From Pelolinea submarina (GTDB lineage: Bacteria > Chloroflexota > Anaerolineae > Anaerolineales > Anaerolineaceae): a stretch of DNA of 64,000 nucleotides. Of the stretch, positions 49,397 to 56,640 are shown piece after piece; position 1 is the first letter of the stretch, and each line of letters begins with the position of its first letter. The position numbers and the translations under genes were made by a program. The DNA lies in assembly GCF_003966975.1 (NCBI RefSeq), contig NZ_AP018437.1:1178001-1242000 (forward strand), in the 5' to 3' direction. The notes beneath the pieces were generated by a model. The model ran no database searches. It saw only the letters and a list, made by a program, of their open reading frames with translations, and was not told where the DNA came from.

Positions 49397-49816
49397 CTAG
49401 AGGATGACGAATTGGGTGATGTTCTCGGGATTGTATTTGATCTTGATCTGGTCGCCCGGGCGCGGAACGTTCAAGCGCGAAACCATCAACTGCCCGGCGG
49501 TTTGGAACGCCTCACCCGTTTTGGGTGTTACTTTGAGCGTCAGCAGCACCACGGGATTCATGTTAACGGTCGCCCCGGTGTCCTGGATGGCGATCACCTC
49601 GGCGGTGGCATCCGCTCCGGTTTGGGCGAGCTGCTCGGCTAACGCCCCCTGATCCAGGGTTTGGTTGGCCATGTTTAATGCCTGGTTGGCCTGGTCGACA
49701 AAATCCTTGCCCATAAATGCCTTGGTCAGTCCGCCCATCAAGCCCTTGTTGATGGCCTTATCGGCATCTTCAAGCGCCTTCTTGGGGTCTTTCTTGTTCT
49801 TTCCCATATTGAACAT
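49397..49816 (-). CDS. Conserved small soluble protein, unknown
   Basis: This 139-residue protein is unrecognised. The N-terminal 70 residues are helical and charged (KKDPKKALEDADKAINKG); the C-terminal 70 are beta-rich (ATAEVIAIQDTGATVNMNP, then LMVSRLNVPRPGDQIKIKY), like a small SHOCT/OB-type module seen in other hypothetical proteins. AAAGGAT lies before the ATG. It stands alone, 250 bases downstream of the end of the ubiquitin-like operon. Confidence 0.6.
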   Translation of the reverse strand: MFNMGKNKKDPKKALEDADKAINKGLMGGLTKAFMGKDFVDQANQALNMANQTLDQGALAEQLAQTGADATAEVIAIQDTGATVNMNPVVLLTLKVTPKTGEAFQTAGQLMVSRLNVPRPGDQIKIKYNPENITQFVIL

Positions 49817-49999: not shown

Positions 50000-50029
50000 G
50001 AGCATGGCCTGTTAGGGCAGGCCATGCTC
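50000..50029 (-). terminator. Hairpin at the end of the ubiquitin-like operon
   Basis: A perfect 12-bp stem (GAGCATGGCCTG at 50000-50011, complement at 50018-50029) with a 6-base loop, 35 bases beyond the last stop. The downstream run is only moderately T-rich (TGATTTAATT). Confidence 0.6.
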
Positions 50030-50063: not shown

Positions 50064-51200
50064 TTAGTCTTTCAAGGTGATCTTGATCTTCGATTTTTTC
50101 TTTCTCTTGGTAGTCTTGTTATTGTCCCCGCCGCCTTTGAAGGCGTTCAGGATCAGCGGGATACACAGCAGCAGCACCAGCACGGCCAGCAGGCCGAAGA
50201 ACAACGGCCAGGAGGCGGGTTGGGCCACTTCGGGCACCAGGCCGCCGGGGTTGTAGCCGGTCTGCGATTGGCCGCCCACGCCGCTGTAGCGGTCCGCCAG
50301 GGTGACGGTCAGGGCGCGCTGCACGCCGTCGCGCAGGCTGAGCGGGGTCACGTAACTGATGACAACTTCGCTCTGCAAGGCGCGGCGCATCTGGTCGTAG
50401 AGCGCCGACAGCTCGGCTTCGTTCTCGGCATAGCCGTAGCGCCCGCCCGCGTTCTGTGCGATCATGCGCAGGGTGTTCTCGTCGATACCGCTGTACTGGT
50501 CGGTTTCCTCTTCGCCTTCCGGCAGCAGGCCGAAGCCCACTGTGGAAATAGACAGGCCGCCGAAGCCGATGCTCGAAAGGGCCTCGTCGGGTGTGGCGAT
50601 GCTCTGGTTGTCCAGGCCGTCCGTCAGGACGATGATGGCTTTGCGGCCGGAGAGCGGGTTGAGCGTGGCGATGGCCTGCACCAGCGCGTCATACAGGGCT
50701 GTGTCGGAGATGGCCGTGATGCTGTCGATGGCCGAACCGAGCGTCTGCGTATCGGCGGTGATGTCCTGCACCACGTGCACTTCGGTGTTGAAGGTGATGA
50801 TGCCGGCCTGGTCGCCCGCGCGCATCTGGTCGATGTATTCGTGCGCGACCTTCTTGGCGCTGTCCAGCTTGCCGGCGTAGTTCATACTGCCGGAGTTGTC
50901 AATTACCAGCAGGGTAGTCAGCGGGCCGACTTCACCTTCGCCCTGGATGCTCTGGCCGCTGACGGGCTGGCCGTTCTCCAGGAGCTGCAGTTTGCCGGTG
51001 TTGATGACCTGCGGTTCGCCGTTGGTGTCGCGCACGGATACGTAAACGTTCACCAGCGGGAAATTGCTGGTATCGATTTGGGTGATCTGTAGGACGTAGT
51101 CGCCCTGGCTTTCCACCTTGGGGGTGGTCTGGCAGGCCGCGCCCAGCAGGGTCAGCGCCAGCAGCGCAATGGTCAGGAAGGGTCTCATTTTATTTTTCAT
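50064..51200 (-). CDS. VWA-domain lipoprotein with C-terminal membrane helix (ubiquitin-like operon gene 7)
   Basis: This 378-residue protein has a lipoprotein signal (LLGAAC, Cys23), a beta-rich segment, and a von Willebrand A domain whose MIDAS is complete at the start: Asp101, Ser103, Ser105 in VIDNSGSMN; TDGLDNQ supplies a later Asp. One C-terminal helix (about 333-355) is followed by a Lys-rich tail ending KSKIKITLKD. VWA domains bind partners through a metal. The tail faces the cytoplasm and resembles the tails of the E1 and E2 of the same operon. Two bases separate it from the FHA-like gene. Confidence 0.88.
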   Translation of the reverse strand: MKNKMRPFLTIALLALTLLGAACQTTPKVESQGDYVLQITQIDTSNFPLVNVYVSVRDTNGEPQVINTGKLQLLENGQPVSGQSIQGEGEVGPLTTLLVIDNSGSMNYAGKLDSAKKVAHEYIDQMRAGDQAGIITFNTEVHVVQDITADTQTLGSAIDSITAISDTALYDALVQAIATLNPLSGRKAIIVLTDGLDNQSIATPDEALSSIGFGGLSISTVGFGLLPEGEEETDQYSGIDENTLRMIAQNAGGRYGYAENEAELSALYDQMRRALQSEVVISYVTPLSLRDGVQRALTVTLADRYSGVGGQSQTGYNPGGLVPEVAQPASWPLFFGLLAVLVLLLCIPLILNAFKGGGDNNKTTKRKKKSKIKITLKD

Positions 51201-51202
51201 GT

Positions 51203-52060
51203 TTACCTCTTCTCGTGATAGACCATTTCAGATTGGCCCATTTCAATGTGCTGCCCGTTGCGCAGGCGCGAAACTTCGATCTTCTTGCCGTCCAGGTAGG
51301 TGCCGCTCATGCTGATGTCCTTGAGGGTGAAGTAGGTGCCTTCACCTTTCAGAATGGCATGCTGCGGCGCGATATCCGGGTCGGCCACGACAATGTCGGA
51401 TTTGAGCGGGCTGCTGCCGATGGCGGCCGCGGGAGCTTCTTTGCCCAGGAACTTATCCAGGATGAATTCCATGCCCCGCATCTTGCCGGTAGTGATCTCC
51501 AGCCAGGCGCGCGAGAACAGGAACACGATCAGGGCGATGAACACGCCCACGGACATGCCCAGCAGGACCAGCCCGGCGGCTTTGCCCATCAGGGCGTCGG
51601 CGAACATCAGGCGCGCGCCTTCCAACAGCACGCCACCCAACAGGCCGCCGATTAGGCCGCCCAGCCCGCCTTTCCAAAGCTGCGCGCCGCCGGTGATGCC
51701 GGTGGCCAGCCCGGTCAGCAGGCCGAAGATGCCCCAACCGATGGGGCGCCCCCACACCTCACCGCCGATGGAGAGGAACACACCCTCGGCAATGGGCAGG
51801 GCGATGGCGCCGCCCACGGCGCCCAGCAGGGCGCTCAGCAGGGATTTGCGCAGGCCGAACAGAAAGTTCTGCGCGGCGAAGCCTTCACCGAAGCCGATCA
51901 GCAGGCCGATCACGCCGCCCAGCAGCGCGCCCACGATCACTTCGCTCAGAAACAGGTTGTCCGTGAAGGATAAGCCCAGGATGTTGCTGATCTGCCAGCC
52001 AATCAAGCCGCCGATAGCGCCCAGCATTCCATAGGTATAAAAACGTGTAAAACGACTCAT
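51203..52060 (-). CDS. Gly-rich membrane protein with C-terminal FHA-like domain (operon gene 6)
   Basis: This 285-residue protein has about six Gly-rich hydrophobic helices (residues 10-190), then a cytoplasmic FHA-like domain (about 210-285: SDIVVADPDIAPQHAIL and LKDISMSGTYLDGKKI). FHA domains normally bind phosphothreonine. Here the key positions look altered: GR is GS, the Ser two or three before His is replaced in APQH, and the Asn of the NG turn is Ser. Phosphopeptide binding is therefore doubtful. ATG follows GAGGAGG. It may be the membrane platform of the system. Confidence 0.83.
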   Translation of the reverse strand: MSRFTRFYTYGMLGAIGGLIGWQISNILGLSFTDNLFLSEVIVGALLGGVIGLLIGFGEGFAAQNFLFGLRKSLLSALLGAVGGAIALPIAEGVFLSIGGEVWGRPIGWGIFGLLTGLATGITGGAQLWKGGLGGLIGGLLGGVLLEGARLMFADALMGKAAGLVLLGMSVGVFIALIVFLFSRAWLEITTGKMRGMEFILDKFLGKEAPAAAIGSSPLKSDIVVADPDIAPQHAILKGEGTYFTLKDISMSGTYLDGKKIEVSRLRNGQHIEMGQSEMVYHEKR

Positions 52061-52065
52061 GTAGG

Positions 52066-52743
52066 TTAGACCTCCTCAGATTCTTCTTCCTCGTCAAACT
52101 CAATTGAATCCCAGGCAGGCTGCAGGTTTTTCCAAAAGACCACGCTTCTCTGGCGCCTATTGGTCAGCTCATAGAAACCAAAGTAAGAACGCTGGTCGAT
52201 GGTGCCGTCCGGTTTGCGGATGAAGAAACCACCCACCGACTGGTGCGGCTCAATTACCAGGGCAACCTGCCACGCTTCCGGGAAGAAATTTTGATGCAGC
52301 CACAGATCCCAGGCCGAAAAGAAGACACCCATACGCGGGTGGGTATGGTACCAACCCAAAAAGACTTTGTTTGGATAATGTTCTTCCAGGTGATTATGCA
52401 ATGCTACCTGCGTGTCGCCGGTGAATGTCAGATGCGCAGCGCCTTGTTCCGTGTAAACGGCCGGCAGGACGGTGTCCACCACAATGAAGGGTGTGCCGTG
52501 TAGGGAGTCACGGCAGTATTTGCCTGCCATCCAACCGCCCACTTCGTTATCCAGGTCGCTGCCGGCGTGCGCGCACATGCGCACGTAGGCGTTTTGGGTC
52601 ACGAAAATGGATAAAGGCGGCTGAACACGCTGCATCTCCTCGTTGGCCGGTTCCCAACGCAAAGCGTTGTGGATAGGGATGCGCGAATGCTGCGGCTTTA
52701 TTCCGGGTTTATCAAATAATTTCACTCGCGGATAAATATTCAA
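52066..52743 (-). CDS. JAMM/MPN+ metalloprotease, deubiquitinase-like (operon gene 5)
   Basis: This 225-residue protein has a complete JAMM site: Glu67 (NEVGG), His133, His135 (GWYHTHPRMG), Ser143 and Asp146 (FFSAWD), spaced H-x-H-x7-S-x2-D. JAMM proteins cut isopeptide bonds of ubiquitin-like modifiers or trim their C termini. The first 45 residues are an extension of unknown role. The start appears to be TTG 52743 with GGAG about 10 bases upstream. It lies between the UBL and FHA-like genes, 22 and 5 bases away, so its substrate is probably the UBL or UBL conjugates. Confidence 0.92.
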   Translation of the reverse strand: MNIYPRVKLFDKPGIKPQHSRIPIHNALRWEPANEEMQRVQPPLSIFVTQNAYVRMCAHAGSDLDNEVGGWMAGKYCRDSLHGTPFIVVDTVLPAVYTEQGAAHLTFTGDTQVALHNHLEEHYPNKVFLGWYHTHPRMGVFFSAWDLWLHQNFFPEAWQVALVIEPHQSVGGFFIRKPDGTIDQRSYFGFYELTNRRQRSVVFWKNLQPAWDSIEFDEEEESEEV

Positions 52744-52765
52744 GGCGGCAGCTCCAGCTTATAAC

Positions 52766-53032
52766 CTATCCTGCGGTGATGTCGGCAGTGATCATCAGAC
52801 GGTCGTCATCCGGCACACCGGCTGTATTGAGCGTCTCATCATCCTGCAGTTCCCGGCCGAGGGCTTTGCTGTCCAGGCGGTAACTGACGGGGCGGCCGTC
52901 CGGGCCGACGGTGGGCAGTTCCAGGGTGGTTGCCAATTCGGGCACCAATTCCTTCACGGCCACGTCGTCGGGAACTTCCGCGTTGCGGGTTCCTCCGGAG
53001 GGTAAAACCAGGGTTACATTTTTATCAGCCAT
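52766..53032 (-). CDS. Ubiquitin-like protein, YukD/EsaB-like beta-grasp (operon gene 4)
   Basis: This 88-residue protein is a small beta-grasp domain (VTLVLPSGGTRNAEVPDD at the start). It is nearly the same as the first 88 residues of the E2 protein encoded just upstream (shared blocks VPDDVAV, LPTVGPDGRP, DSKALGREL, DRLMIT, DITAG). It ends in a single exposed Gly, not Gly-Gly, so conjugation without processing is possible but unproven. ATG 53032 has AAAGGAG upstream; a longer frame from TTG 53053 is rejected. Predicted modifier of the system. Confidence 0.85.
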   Translation of the reverse strand: MADKNVTLVLPSGGTRNAEVPDDVAVKELVPELATTLELPTVGPDGRPVSYRLDSKALGRELQDDETLNTAGVPDDDRLMITADITAG

Positions 53033-53053
53033 CTTCTTTCTTACTCCTTTCAA

Positions 53054-53905
53054 TTATTTCAGTTTGATTTTTGGCTTTGCCGTTGTGGTGGGTTTGCTGA
53101 ATTTGATCCTCTCAGGGCGCAGCAATTCGCGCGTGTCCACTGGGAAATAATTCGGGTTTTTCTTGCGAAATTCCCTGCACCACTTGGCAGCTTCCATGTC
53201 CCACGGGAAGGGGGGTTTGGTGGGATCATCGTGGAAGTTTTTGTACTGCAGCATTTCCCCCAGCATAATCACCAGGCGGTCCAACGACCGGCTGGCCGAC
53301 CACCAGGCCGCGTCAATACACACGCTGCCGTTGGCATGGTTGATGTTCGGGTGCCAGATGGGGGTCATCCATTTCATGCCCGGCCAGCGCTGCGGGTACT
53401 GGCTGTGCAGGTAGATCTCCACCTGATGATGCTGTCCAATCTTGGGGTTGCCGCTGCGGTCGACGCTCACAATGCCTTTGCATTTGTAGGTGATGATGTA
53501 ACGTTCCGGCGGCAAGCCGACTCGTTCCGATGTGGCTTTGACCTGGATCAGGTCGCTGCGCGCATCGATTTCCTGGATCAATTCGTAATCCTTGCGCAAG
53601 CGGCGCAGGCGCGGGTTGGAATTCACCGAAATCGCGCCGGCACCGGCAGTGATGTCCGTGGTGATCATCAAGCGGTCTTCGCTGGGAATCCCGCTTGCGG
53701 CCAAAGTCTCATCCTCACGCAGCTCGCGCCCTAACGCTTTGCTGTCCATGCGGTAGCCCATGGGCCGGCCGTCCGGGCCGACGGTGGGCAGTCCCAGCAA
53801 GGAGGTGAGTTCTGCCAACAGGTCGCGCACGGCCACATCGTCGGGCACATCCGCCCGGCGGGCGCTTCCGTTGGGTAGTACGAGTGTTACTGAAATATCC
53901 GCCAT
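53054..53905 (-). CDS. Ubiquitin-like domain fused to an E2 conjugating enzyme (operon gene 3)
   Basis: This 283-residue protein has an N-terminal UBL domain (1-88) like the free UBL, then an E2/UBC fold (about 98-255). E2 marks are IWHPNINHANGSVCID: HPN at 185-187 and catalytic Cys196, nine residues after the Asn, as in eukaryotic E2s. The C terminus is Lys-rich and ends KPKIKLK. E2 takes the modifier from E1 as a thioester and passes it to target lysines with or without an E3. The built-in UBL may dock E1, bind the RING partner, or mimic a backside-bound ubiquitin. Confidence 0.92.
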   Translation of the reverse strand: MADISVTLVLPNGSARRADVPDDVAVRDLLAELTSLLGLPTVGPDGRPMGYRMDSKALGRELREDETLAASGIPSEDRLMITTDITAGAGAISVNSNPRLRRLRKDYELIQEIDARSDLIQVKATSERVGLPPERYIITYKCKGIVSVDRSGNPKIGQHHQVEIYLHSQYPQRWPGMKWMTPIWHPNINHANGSVCIDAAWWSASRSLDRLVIMLGEMLQYKNFHDDPTKPPFPWDMEAAKWCREFRKKNPNYFPVDTRELLRPERIKFSKPTTTAKPKIKLK

Positions 53906-53933
53906 TTACTCCTCCACATTAATAAAAATAATT

Positions 53934-54872
53934 TCACAGCTCGTTCCGGTGAGCTACACCGCAGGATCCGGTCAGGTCCCAGCAGTCCTTATGATGCCAG
54001 GTGCCGCATTCGGGACAGACCACGATTTCCTCACTTTTATCGACTTTTTCAAGACAATACGGGCAGACATGTTCCTCTTCACCCATCAATTTAACGTCGT
54101 TCAGCTGCTTGCCTTTGGATTTGCGCGGCGCGGCTGTTTTGACAGCTGTACTTTTCTTCGTCGATTTTTTGGGCGCTTTGATCACGACCGGCGCTGAAAG
54201 CGCGGTGGAAGCGGGTCCGGTGTTGATGTGCACCGCCTTGACGGGCGCACTGATCTTCGGTTTGGAAGCGATCTTTTTTACCTTATCGGAAACCGTATGC
54301 GTAACCTGCCAGTTGCCGGGGTTTATGGCGGACAGCACCGGCTGCACACGCTGGCTGAGCGAGATTGTGGGTTTGGCTGTCCGGGCGCGGGCGGCGGGCC
54401 GGGGCGCGGGCGTGGGTGCCGGGGCTTGCTGTGCCCGCGAAGCCTTGGCGGGTTTATTGACTTTATCCGCTTTGTTTACCGTACGGGAACGGCGCAGGAA
54501 AAACAGCGTGGGCAGGGAAATGATCAGCAGCAACATGCCCTGCGCACCATCGCTGATGTTGGGAGTTTGCAGGGTCAATGCATGGGTCAGGAAGGAGAAA
54601 CGGTAAGGGCTTTCGTAAAAATAATCGACCATCAGCAGGGCCAGCACCTGGGTGATTAATGCGATTAAAAATAAAAGGACCCCGTGCCAGCGGCGGAACA
54701 GAAGCCGCGCGATCAAACTACCGATGAAAGCCACAGCGGCCAGTATGCAGAGGCGCAATATAAAATAATCCATGGTCGGGCGGGGAGCCAGCAGGATGAT
54801 CACCAGCAGTGCCGCGGAGATGCTGAAAACCAGCAGCGCCAGCCATTTCAGGAATGCGTTCAGGACTTTCAT
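53934..54872 (-). CDS. Membrane protein with C-terminal RING-like zinc domain, E3 candidate (operon gene 2)
   Basis: This 312-residue protein has four hydrophobic helices (about 8-29, 36-58, 63-82, 109-127), a long Pro/Ala/Lys-rich linker and a C-terminal treble-clef/RING-like domain with Cys270, Cys273, Cys286, Cys289, His293/His294, Cys297 and Cys304 (CPYC, CPECGTWHHKDC, SCG). This arrangement fits prokaryotic RING-type domains found with ubiquitin-like systems. Binding of the E2 at the membrane is the expected role. The start ATG overlaps the E1 stop (ATGA), so both are co-translated. Alternative: a plain zinc ribbon without ligase activity. Confidence 0.82.
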   Translation of the reverse strand: MKVLNAFLKWLALLVFSISAALLVIILLAPRPTMDYFILRLCILAAVAFIGSLIARLLFRRWHGVLLFLIALITQVLALLMVDYFYESPYRFSFLTHALTLQTPNISDGAQGMLLLIISLPTLFFLRRSRTVNKADKVNKPAKASRAQQAPAPTPAPRPAARARTAKPTISLSQRVQPVLSAINPGNWQVTHTVSDKVKKIASKPKISAPVKAVHINTGPASTALSAPVVIKAPKKSTKKSTAVKTAAPRKSKGKQLNDVKLMGEEEHVCPYCLEKVDKSEEIVVCPECGTWHHKDCWDLTGSCGVAHRNEL

Positions 54873-56569
54873 GAAGACTTCTTATCCTTGACCTTGATAG
54901 TGATTTTTTCTTCCTTTTCAACGGGCGTGCTGATCTTTACGTCCGGGTCATGCAATTTAATCTTGGGACGGCTTTTCAAGACAACTTTTTCGCCCAGTTT
55001 GATGCGCCCGCTCAGTTTGAGCGGGGTTTCATAGGCCGGTTTCTCAAAATGGTTGAAATGCAGCGCATCTTCCAAATCGCCGCTCAGTTCATAAAAACGA
55101 TATTCGCTGGCATTAAATGCACGTACGATGTGCAGAGCCGGCACGCCCAGACTGGCCAGGGTGCGGGAGAGGAAATTCTCCTCGCCGGTGATGGTGTGGG
55201 AAAGTTCCGTCTCGCGCAACAAACCGCAGGCCGGGCAGTGAGCGCGGTTGAATCCGACTGAAGAGATGGGTTCCAGAATCTCCTCGTGTGTGCCGCACTG
55301 CGGGCAGTTCAGCGAGAGCACCAATTCCTGGTCCAACTCGATGACCGCGTCCGGACCCAGGTCGCGGCGCGCGATTTTGAGAAGGTCGCCCAGTGTGGTG
55401 GTGTCGGCGCGCAGGGGCAGCTCGGTGATGTCGCCGTAGGTCCAATGGCTTTCGCAGTCCTCCACCGGCGTGTAGGCGGTGGTGTGCATTTCATTAGTCA
55501 TGCCATTGAAATGGATCACCTGGCCGGGTTTGACCGGCTTGCCGTGCAGCAGCTTAAGAGCTTCCTGCGACTGGATGGCGGCGATGATGGAGGCGATGGT
55601 GGGGGTGGTGGGCACCTTGCCCAGCAGCACGTTCTCGCGTGCCAGCAGCGGGCAGGAATAGCGCAGCGCAAGGTCGCGGCGGGCCTGCTCGGTCAGGCTG
55701 CATTCGAAGCAGGCACCCTGGCCGGGCACAAACACGCGCGCCAGACCGAAGAATTCCTGAATGGCCCCGTCCACCCAGGGTTTATCAATCCAGTAAGCAA
55801 AGCGGTTGATGGCCAGCCGGGCTTCGCGGTTATCCAGGCAGCCGATGATGACATCCATGCGCCGGAAAACACCCAGACCGATGTCGGTGGTCACATCGCC
55901 GTGTACGTACTGCACGTGAATGTTGGGGTTGATCTCCTTGGCGCGCGCGGCGGCCACTTCGGCTTTCTTGCGGCCGGAATCGCTTTCGCGGAAAAGCACC
56001 GAGCGGGACAGGTTGGCCAGCTCGATAGTATCGAAATCAACGATGAAGATGTGGCCGATGCCCATCAGCACCAGGTTCTTGATGACCTCGTTGCCCAGTG
56101 CGCCGGCACCTACCACCATGACCTTGGCGTTTTCCACCTTTTCACGCTCCCACCAGGAAATGAACTCAAAAGTGCCCTGGCGGTCGGTTTTCAGATTGGG
56201 GATAATCAGGGGCTTTTCGGGGTTGGAGGGCAGACGGCGCGGGCCGTCGGGAAAATCGTCCGGCGAAATACGCACGCGCCCGGCCACAGGCTGGTTTTCA
56301 GCCAACTCGGCAATTTGATGGGCCAACGGCAGGTTGTGCTCATCCAGTTCGGAGATGAACCAGCCCACGCCGTGGCGCGACTCGATCAGGTTGATCTCTT
56401 CCAGCGCTTTCAACGCTTCACGCAGGGTGGAGCGGCTTACGCCGAAGAGCTTGATCAGGTCACGCTCGGCCGGCAGCTGGAAGCCGGACTGGTATGTTCC
56501 GTCCAGAACCTGCGCGGCCAATTTGCCGGCTACAATTTCAGATAAAGATTTGCGGGGAATTTCGTCCAC
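54869..56569 (-). CDS. E1-like activating enzyme with N-terminal GntR DNA-binding domain (operon gene 1)
   Basis: This 566-residue protein fuses a GntR winged helix (about 8-73: LPAERDLIKLFGVSRSTLREA, written here as its core, then ESRHGVGWFIS) to a ThiF/E1 adenylyltransferase. The E1 part has VVGAGALGNEVIKNL (154-159), DFDTIELANLSRS with Arg189, GCLDNREAR, Cys287/Cys290 (ACFEC) and Cys306 (YSCPLLA), placed like the active-site Cys of eukaryotic UBA3. Two later Cys pairs (422/425, 445/448) may bind zinc. The tail is Lys-rich (RPKIKL, KITIKVKD). GTG start with GAGG five bases upstream. It should activate the UBL and may also repress its own operon. Confidence 0.93.
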   Translation of the reverse strand: MDEIPRKSLSEIVAGKLAAQVLDGTYQSGFQLPAERDLIKLFGVSRSTLREALKALEEINLIESRHGVGWFISELDEHNLPLAHQIAELAENQPVAGRVRISPDDFPDGPRRLPSNPEKPLIIPNLKTDRQGTFEFISWWEREKVENAKVMVVGAGALGNEVIKNLVLMGIGHIFIVDFDTIELANLSRSVLFRESDSGRKKAEVAAARAKEINPNIHVQYVHGDVTTDIGLGVFRRMDVIIGCLDNREARLAINRFAYWIDKPWVDGAIQEFFGLARVFVPGQGACFECSLTEQARRDLALRYSCPLLARENVLLGKVPTTPTIASIIAAIQSQEALKLLHGKPVKPGQVIHFNGMTNEMHTTAYTPVEDCESHWTYGDITELPLRADTTTLGDLLKIARRDLGPDAVIELDQELVLSLNCPQCGTHEEILEPISSVGFNRAHCPACGLLRETELSHTITGEENFLSRTLASLGVPALHIVRAFNASEYRFYELSGDLEDALHFNHFEKPAYETPLKLSGRIKLGEKVVLKSRPKIKLHDPDVKISTPVEKEEKITIKVKDKKSS

Positions 56570-56581
56570 TGGTGCCTCGCT

Positions 56582-56612
56582 TTTGGTATATTGGTCAGAC
56601 CACTATACCAAA
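56582..56612. promoter_or_regulatory. 31-bp palindromic GntR/FadR-type operator
   Basis: The core TGGTCAGACCA (56592-56602) is the classic FadR-subfamily GntR site. It is flanked by TTTGGTATA (56582-56590) and TATACCAAA (56604-56612) around the same centre, base 56597. Only one of 15 base pairs is broken. It begins at the -10 box and covers the predicted start site of the ubiquitin-like operon, so a bound protein should block transcription. Confidence 0.88.
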
Positions 56613-56640
56613 GTATAGGAGTTTTTGTTGGGGTTGTCAA
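56612..56640 (-). promoter_or_regulatory. Strong promoter of the ubiquitin-like operon
   Basis: On the minus strand: TTGACA (56640-56635), a 17-base spacer and TATACT (56617-56612). The predicted start is near 56605, giving a leader of about 35 nt to the GTG at 56569. Near-consensus strength plus an overlapping operator implies a normally repressed, inducible unit. Confidence 0.88.

Follow-up and report, generated by a model that had tools for sequence, protein, structure and literature searches.

Why would the E1 of a bacterial ubiquitin-like conjugation operon carry a DNA-binding domain, and what might that domain bind? The question is posed by a 64,000-nucleotide stretch of the Pelolinea submarina genome (hereinafter the window; NZ_AP018437.1, positions 1,178,001 to 1,242,000 of a genome of 3.52 Mb on a single contig). 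Here, seven consecutive minus-strand genes at 50064–56569, with every gap or overlap between neighbors being under 30 bases, code for an E1, a RING-like protein, an E2, a free ubiquitin-like (UBL) modifier, a JAMM peptidase, an FHA protein and a VWA protein. A first-pass annotation had proposed this operon, which the coordinates and Pfam domains (all seven proteins scoring above the gathering threshold) bear out, and had taken its E1 to be self-regulating from the domain alone. The latter proposal now gains a conserved candidate operator in the E1 promoter, which makes self-regulation a strong prediction. Accordingly, we posit that the E1 of this YukD-type pathway likely represses its own operon via its FadR-type domain, from an operator at the predicted transcription start. 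Directly observed are the invariance of the catalytic and DNA-contact residues, the domain fusion, the conserved gene order and the presence of the operator at E1 promoters and at two lipoprotein genes.

A conserved candidate operator at the E1 promoter

The E1 gene (54869–56569, minus strand; GTG start, 566 amino acids; Pfam GntR and ThiF) lies behind a predicted operon promoter of the form TTGACA-17-TATACT (−35 box at 56635–56640, −10 box at 56612–56617, both minus strand), which matches the consensus at 11 of 12 positions with a 17-base spacer. The scan returned four promoter-like sites as compared to 3.3 in shuffles; its score alone is thus weak, with the adjoining operator adding support. 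The predicted operator, TGGTATAGTGGTCTGACCAATATACCA (56584–56610, minus strand), begins one base past the −10 box, at the expected transcription start, and sits in a palindrome of 31 bases, in which 14 of 15 positions match. Its center, TGGTCTGACCA, displays the spacing TGGT-n3-ACCA, which is the operator form of FadR; a 17-mer of such a form also occurs in the literature.

Beyond the palindrome itself, the operator emerges from a whole-genome search, from relatives and from information content. The relatives comprise 80 named loci (the best 80 of 91, all from Chloroflexota), which together with the window make 81. A site score of at least 19 of 27 matches is reached by 61 of the 70 scorable relatives (L133, whose contig has no DNA upstream of the E1, is not scorable), as against 0.2% of 1400 shuffles, and in 44 of these 61 promoters the site starts 0–3 bases after the −10 box. 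The fair comparison of information content with shuffles uses all 70 rows: the site then holds 1.14 bits per base and its core 1.63, as compared to 0.24 and 0.23, respectively, in identically aligned shuffled promoters. In a separate profile, drawn only from the 67 of 70 rows with a score of 17 or more (64 after dereplication), the flanks of the site hold 0.05 and 0.18 bits per base, indicating that conservation is much stronger within the site than around it. A stricter count of the core, made on 61 of the 79 loci, finds it in 55 and misses it in six, three of which have a one-base variant.

The DNA-binding domain of the E1

The E1 combines a GntR winged helix (10–72), a linker with low confidence in the structural model at residues 94–121, a ThiF adenylation domain (129–366) containing Cys306, a zinc-binding domain (approximately 380–505) aligning with the E1 ubiquitin-fold region, and a disordered tail (511–566); the model spans the C-terminal region that SUMO and NEDD8 E1s have. 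By sequence, the nearest solved relatives of the winged helix are FadR-type regulators and PdhR. The available text of PMC4259882 gives R35, T44, R45, T46, T47, R49 and H65 as the FadR–DNA contacts. The equivalents R36, R46 and R50 of the E1 are unvaried in all ungapped rows (70, 71 and 71 of 79, respectively), pointing to a domain under selection, while 71 rows have Thr or Ser at T48 and S45 is mostly retained. A Pfam search detected no FCD ligand-binding domain in the E1, the winged helix being followed instead by the ThiF adenylation domain.

Across four loci in three lineages, the site is present where the E1 has the DNA-binding domain and missing where it does not. Family f20 has an E1 that is 56% identical over residues 120–506 and lacks the GntR domain, in an operon of the order E1-UBL-E2-JAMM-JAMM-RING, and the FadR-type core is absent at its E1 promoter. 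A second conjugation operon of the same genome, with a GntR-less E1, likewise has no FadR-type core in 19 kb. Conversely, a GntR-E1 from another class (L211) retains TGGTCTGACCA directly past a TATAAT box.

The second operon (L038:7649–15580, equivalent to C1 1483648–1491579) merits description in its own right: it codes for two E2s, a weak YukD-type UBL, a JAMM peptidase, a VWA protein, two RING-like proteins, a CAP-family protein and a weak PARP-like protein that falls below the Pfam cut-off. Its E1 has by eye a UBL-like stretch at the end, where Pfam reports none. At L208 and L209 (in genomes G288 and G506), GntR-less relatives of the operon have a modifier likewise ending in VTAG and two JAMM genes, one of which has a predicted membrane segment after it.

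Sites beyond the operon

With up to three mismatches, the 27-base pattern occurs at three places in this genome, namely before the E1 and before two genes for predicted lipoproteins of 253 and 214 amino acids, where it also follows a TTGACA promoter. The reversed control pattern yields no match at this threshold and one with a looser pattern. Close orthologs of the 253-residue lipoprotein (54–100% identity) are found in ten genomes from three genera, and all ten have both the operon and an operator immediately upstream of the lipoprotein gene; the operator precedes the 214-residue lipoprotein gene in three genomes. Neither lipoprotein matches a Pfam family at E 0.5. Distant relatives of the former (25–38% identity) are widespread whether or not the operon is present, with the family occurring in 73 of 151 genomes in all; hence, it is only the close orthologs, rather than the family, that are specific to the pathway.

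The extended pattern is present in 28 of 33 operon-bearing relatives and none of 33 operon-lacking ones, a comparison informative only through the lipoprotein sites, as the absence of the operon itself removes the main site. The five misses include contigs starting inside or near the E1 and two diverged sites. Among 36 genomes, the shorter pattern TGGTCNGACCANNANACCA matches with one mismatch in 26, namely in 25 of the 26 that have a GntR-E1 (G122 only at an unrelated place), neither of the two with a GntR-less E1, and one of the eight without the operon. Since its reversed control also matches many of these genomes, lone matches away from the operon do not exceed chance. In distant families, the operon's own site is the only one found, suggesting autoregulation to be ancestral, with the lipoprotein genes added later. 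Additionally, G001 contains a site with three mismatches (C5:37554) to which no gene is assigned. A DUF3048 protein (Pfam; L080:3302–4516) is encoded divergently next to an operator-bearing lipoprotein gene, with similar open reading frames seen by eye in L117–L121, and may share its control region.

A conserved, predicted conjugation pathway

The remaining core genes, all on the minus strand like the rest of the operon, encode the RING-like protein (53934–54872) with a C-terminal Prok-RING_1 finger and predicted N-terminal membrane helices, the E2 (53054–53905; Pfam YukD and UQ_con), the free modifier (52766–53032; Pfam YukD, 88 amino acids) and the JAMM peptidase (52066–52743; TTG start, Pfam JAB and Prok-JAB). 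The E2 contains a second modifier domain, an N-terminal YukD-type UBL domain (residues 6–80), which had escaped the first-pass annotation and is fused to the E2 in all 81 loci. The Ub of Caldiarchaeum subterraneum (6fj7) is among the structural matches.

The gene order E1-RING-E2-UBL-JAMM-FHA-VWA is identical in 64 of the 81 Anaerolineae loci, the comparison across bacterial genomes for which the earlier reading had called. Five others have a second JAMM gene, one has the FHA gene before the JAMM gene, and 11 are incomplete, the missing genes in each case falling where the sequence stops (within 146 bases). Where present, the extra JAMM gene (361–422 amino acids; L188, L190, L194, L196 and L198) precedes the usual one. 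Of 151 genomes from the family and order, 33 (this one among them) encode a GntR-E1, either full-length or partial, and the operon together with the predicted operator is also present in the cultured relative Leptolinea tardivitalis YMTK-2.

The catalytic residues picked out at first sight, together with Ser143 of the JAMM peptidase, proved invariant apart from alignment gaps: Cys306 of the E1 is present in 73 of 79 relatives, with gaps in the other six; the His-Pro-Asn motif and Cys196 of the E2 in 81 of 81; and, in the JAMM peptidase, Glu67 in 77 of 77 and His133, His135, Ser143 and Asp146 in 76 of 77 (one gap). The modifier, which here terminates in DITAG, has [VI]TAG as its unextended C-terminus in 75 of 78 relatives and thus exposes a C-terminal glycine (counts made with the start at 53026, two codons short of 53032). 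The locus co-encodes the E1, E2, RING, JAMM and UBL components of a YukD-type bacterial ubiquitin-like conjugation operon, and we predict that it specifies such a pathway. The constancy of order and residues argues for a working pathway, short of demonstrating conjugation.

Membrane proteins, a shared tail motif and the flanks

The FHA protein (51203–52060) is a predicted multi-pass membrane protein with a C-terminal FHA domain (Pfam), and the VWA protein (50064–51200; Pfam VWA) has an N-terminal signal, a predicted membrane helix at 333–351 and a cytosolic tail KIKITLKD. A hydropathy scan places these two and the RING-like protein at the membrane, in agreement with the location first suggested for them. 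The description of the VWA protein as a lipoprotein holds in this genome, where a lipobox is present, but only 3 of 73 relatives have one by regular expression; hence, the trait is not conserved. A terminator-like hairpin of 12 pairs lies 3′ of the VWA gene (50000–50029, minus strand; the scan gave 12 sites against a background mean of 8.1).

A basic tail motif of the form [IVL]-polar-[LIFM]-basic is shared by the C-termini of the E2 (79 of 81 relatives; PKIKLK here) and the VWA protein (58 of 69), and is also seen in the E1 of 33 of 79, as compared to 7 of 844 other open reading frames. In the second operon, five proteins show acidic hydrophobic motifs near their N-termini, with 9 matches in 2602 amino acids against a background of 0.46 per 1000 in the open reading frames of the window. 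We read the basic tails and the acidic motifs as docking motifs, perhaps for the modifier, the net charge of which is −9 in this operon, +2 in the second one and −1 in the GntR-less one; this charge match rests on three systems only. That the E2 tail folds in cis onto its own UBL domain is unsupported, with AlphaFold giving residues 266–283 a predicted local distance difference test (pLDDT) score below 50. A motif preceding the RING finger, present in 74 of 79, has no background count and was not used as evidence.

Five of the six flanking open reading frames encode metabolic proteins (Fe-alcohol dehydrogenase, glycerol-3-phosphate dehydrogenase, a CorA transporter, GH57 and alpha-amylase), while the sixth has no Pfam family; PADLOC returned only weak CorA matches on the flanks. 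The characterization of the neighborhood as metabolic rather than defensive thus stands for all but that sixth frame. Directly downstream of the operon, a 139-residue protein with no Pfam family is encoded at 49397–49816, with its own promoter-like sequence.

Mechanism and alternative explanations

A matching conserved site in its own promoter and before two lipoprotein genes makes the E1 a likely repressor of its own pathway. ThiF-type E1s are dimers; such a dimer would set two winged helices on the palindrome and block RNA polymerase. The least certain step is that the adenylation domain might serve as the sensor in place of the usual FadR ligand domain, such that repression would depend on whether the E1 is free, adenylate-bound or engaged with the E2 and RING at the membrane, where the basic C-terminal motif of the E2 and VWA proteins may gather the machinery. 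Most probably, release would follow once catalysis or the membrane engages the E1; the direction of the effect and the state sensed are inferred. The analog is the accumulated biotinoyl-adenylate in BirA, and a BirA-like feedback is our preferred model, in which a changed demand for conjugation would re-express the operon and the two surface lipoproteins together. More tentatively, and with somewhat less than even confidence, we envisage the E1 as the transcription factor of the pathway, a BirA-like switch that reads its conjugation state on a dedicated operator and ties membrane tagging to surface lipoprotein expression, with a short docking motif of matching charge, basic in this operon and acidic in the second, recruiting the machinery to the modifier much as SUMO-interacting motifs do.

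Several observations pull the other way. The promoters of L188 and L192 (2 of 70) have no site, and that of the L184 E1 (Ardenticatenales) has a different palindrome, TGGTATACGTGGCATACCA, at the operator position, possibly reflecting a changed specificity. The FadR contact His65 (H66 in the E1) is lost, with His in only 10 of 71 ungapped rows. Sites beyond the operon are confined to three genera, and the 33-against-33 comparison carries the above restriction. With regard to docking, the E2 tail is disordered in the AlphaFold model and is not seen to dock on the E2's own UBL domain. Finally, this genome encodes several other GntR-type proteins and the TGGT-n3-ACCA core is generic for FadR-type regulators, which would suit a separate FadR/GntR regulator binding the operator, with the GntR domain of the E1 being a relic or having another role. 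We consider this improbable, given the selection evident on the three contact arginines, the absence of the extended site from the 33 operon-lacking relatives (whose other GntR proteins are unchecked) and the lack of the site in GntR-less E1 operons.

The E1 might instead bind the operator as an activator or as a roadblock that tunes the operon, conjugation and regulation then being unconnected functions that share a polypeptide, much like those of a simple trigger enzyme. The low-confidence linker and the lack of any sign in the sequence coupling catalytic state to DNA binding would fit this; yet the site lies 0–3 bases past the −10 box in most high-scoring promoters, a position usual for repression, and we judge the idea unlikely. 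A phage-defense module akin to Bil, Bub or type II CBASS appears improbable: the PADLOC E1–E2 and JAB models do match the E1 and JAMM proteins, and the second, different operon carries PARP-like and CAP proteins, but PADLOC gives nothing for the E2, UBL, FHA and VWA proteins, the flanks are mostly metabolic and the gene order is kept across the class. Highly improbable is a sulfur-carrier or cofactor pathway of the ThiS/MoaD kind; while the best curated NCBIfam matches of the E1 are ThiF and MoeB, all below their cut-offs, the co-encoded RING and JAMM proteins, a UQ_con E2 with an invariant Cys and the extent of the E1 model into the SUMO and NEDD8 E1 region speak for protein conjugation.

Were the E1 to bind its own promoter, the first chemical step of protein tagging would be directly linked to gene expression, opening an experimental route to the signals sensed by such operons, which are widespread and unexplained. 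As the operator names two co-regulated lipoprotein genes, the cell surface becomes the likely and testable place of action.

Comparison with known systems

The DNA-binding part resembles the FadR/PdhR subfamily of GntR in its winged helix, contact arginines and TGGT-n3-ACCA core, but the E1 stands where the FCD ligand-binding domain would be. In its proposed working it is like group II BirA: group I ligases lack the DNA-binding domain, paralleling the GntR-less E1s, and B. subtilis BirA has three sites of action (both per the available text of PMC4016012). However, the E1 is not a member of that group, with an unrelated catalytic fold, a protein rather than biotin as the substrate and no match to the biotin protein ligase catalytic domain (Pfam; 25 NCBIfam families).

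Bub and Bil operons with CapW, CapH and CapP, or CapK and CapS are likewise conjugation operons under a DNA-binding repressor; there and in CBASS, the repressor is a separate protein, encoded by an adjacent gene in Bub and Bil, whereas here it would be part of the E1 (PMC13373217, available text). The Bil hallmarks are also wanting: by the definition in the available text of PMC11354881, the E1 should combine inactive and active adenylation domains, but only one ThiF stretch (129–366) is found, and in place of the E2 CEHH motif, positions +6, +8 and +13 past Cys196 are Trp, Ala and Asp. Among the seven operon and six flanking proteins, no CD-NTase of type II CBASS was detected, nor were the WXG100 and FtsK/EccC-type genes of type VII secretion. 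The Caldiarchaeum subterraneum operon has a comparably compact set of Ub, E1, E2, RING and deubiquitinase (PMC11354881, available text), from which the present one differs in its YukD-type modifier ending in AG, its FHA and VWA partners and its predicted built-in regulator.

Our literature search, with most subscription papers outside its coverage, found no report of a GntR-E1 or of a conjugation E1 as its own operator-binding regulator. Burroughs, in 2011, reportedly proposed YukD-like conjugation. The same enzyme set, whose membership in a known class had been recognized at the outset, is shared with published predicted E1/E2/RING/JAB/Ubl operons (Iyer 2006; Burroughs 2011; Kaur 2020), and the available text of Kaur 2020 (PMC7159879) describes a Ubl–E2 fusion alongside JAB, E1 and RING. 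The available text of Iyer 2006 has no mention of GntR or winged helix-turn-helix domains. Thus, while the enzymes had already been predicted in print, the operon described here differs in the GntR domain of its E1, the conserved cognate operator and a small regulon, and what is new is the prediction of the E1 as an operator-bound regulator.
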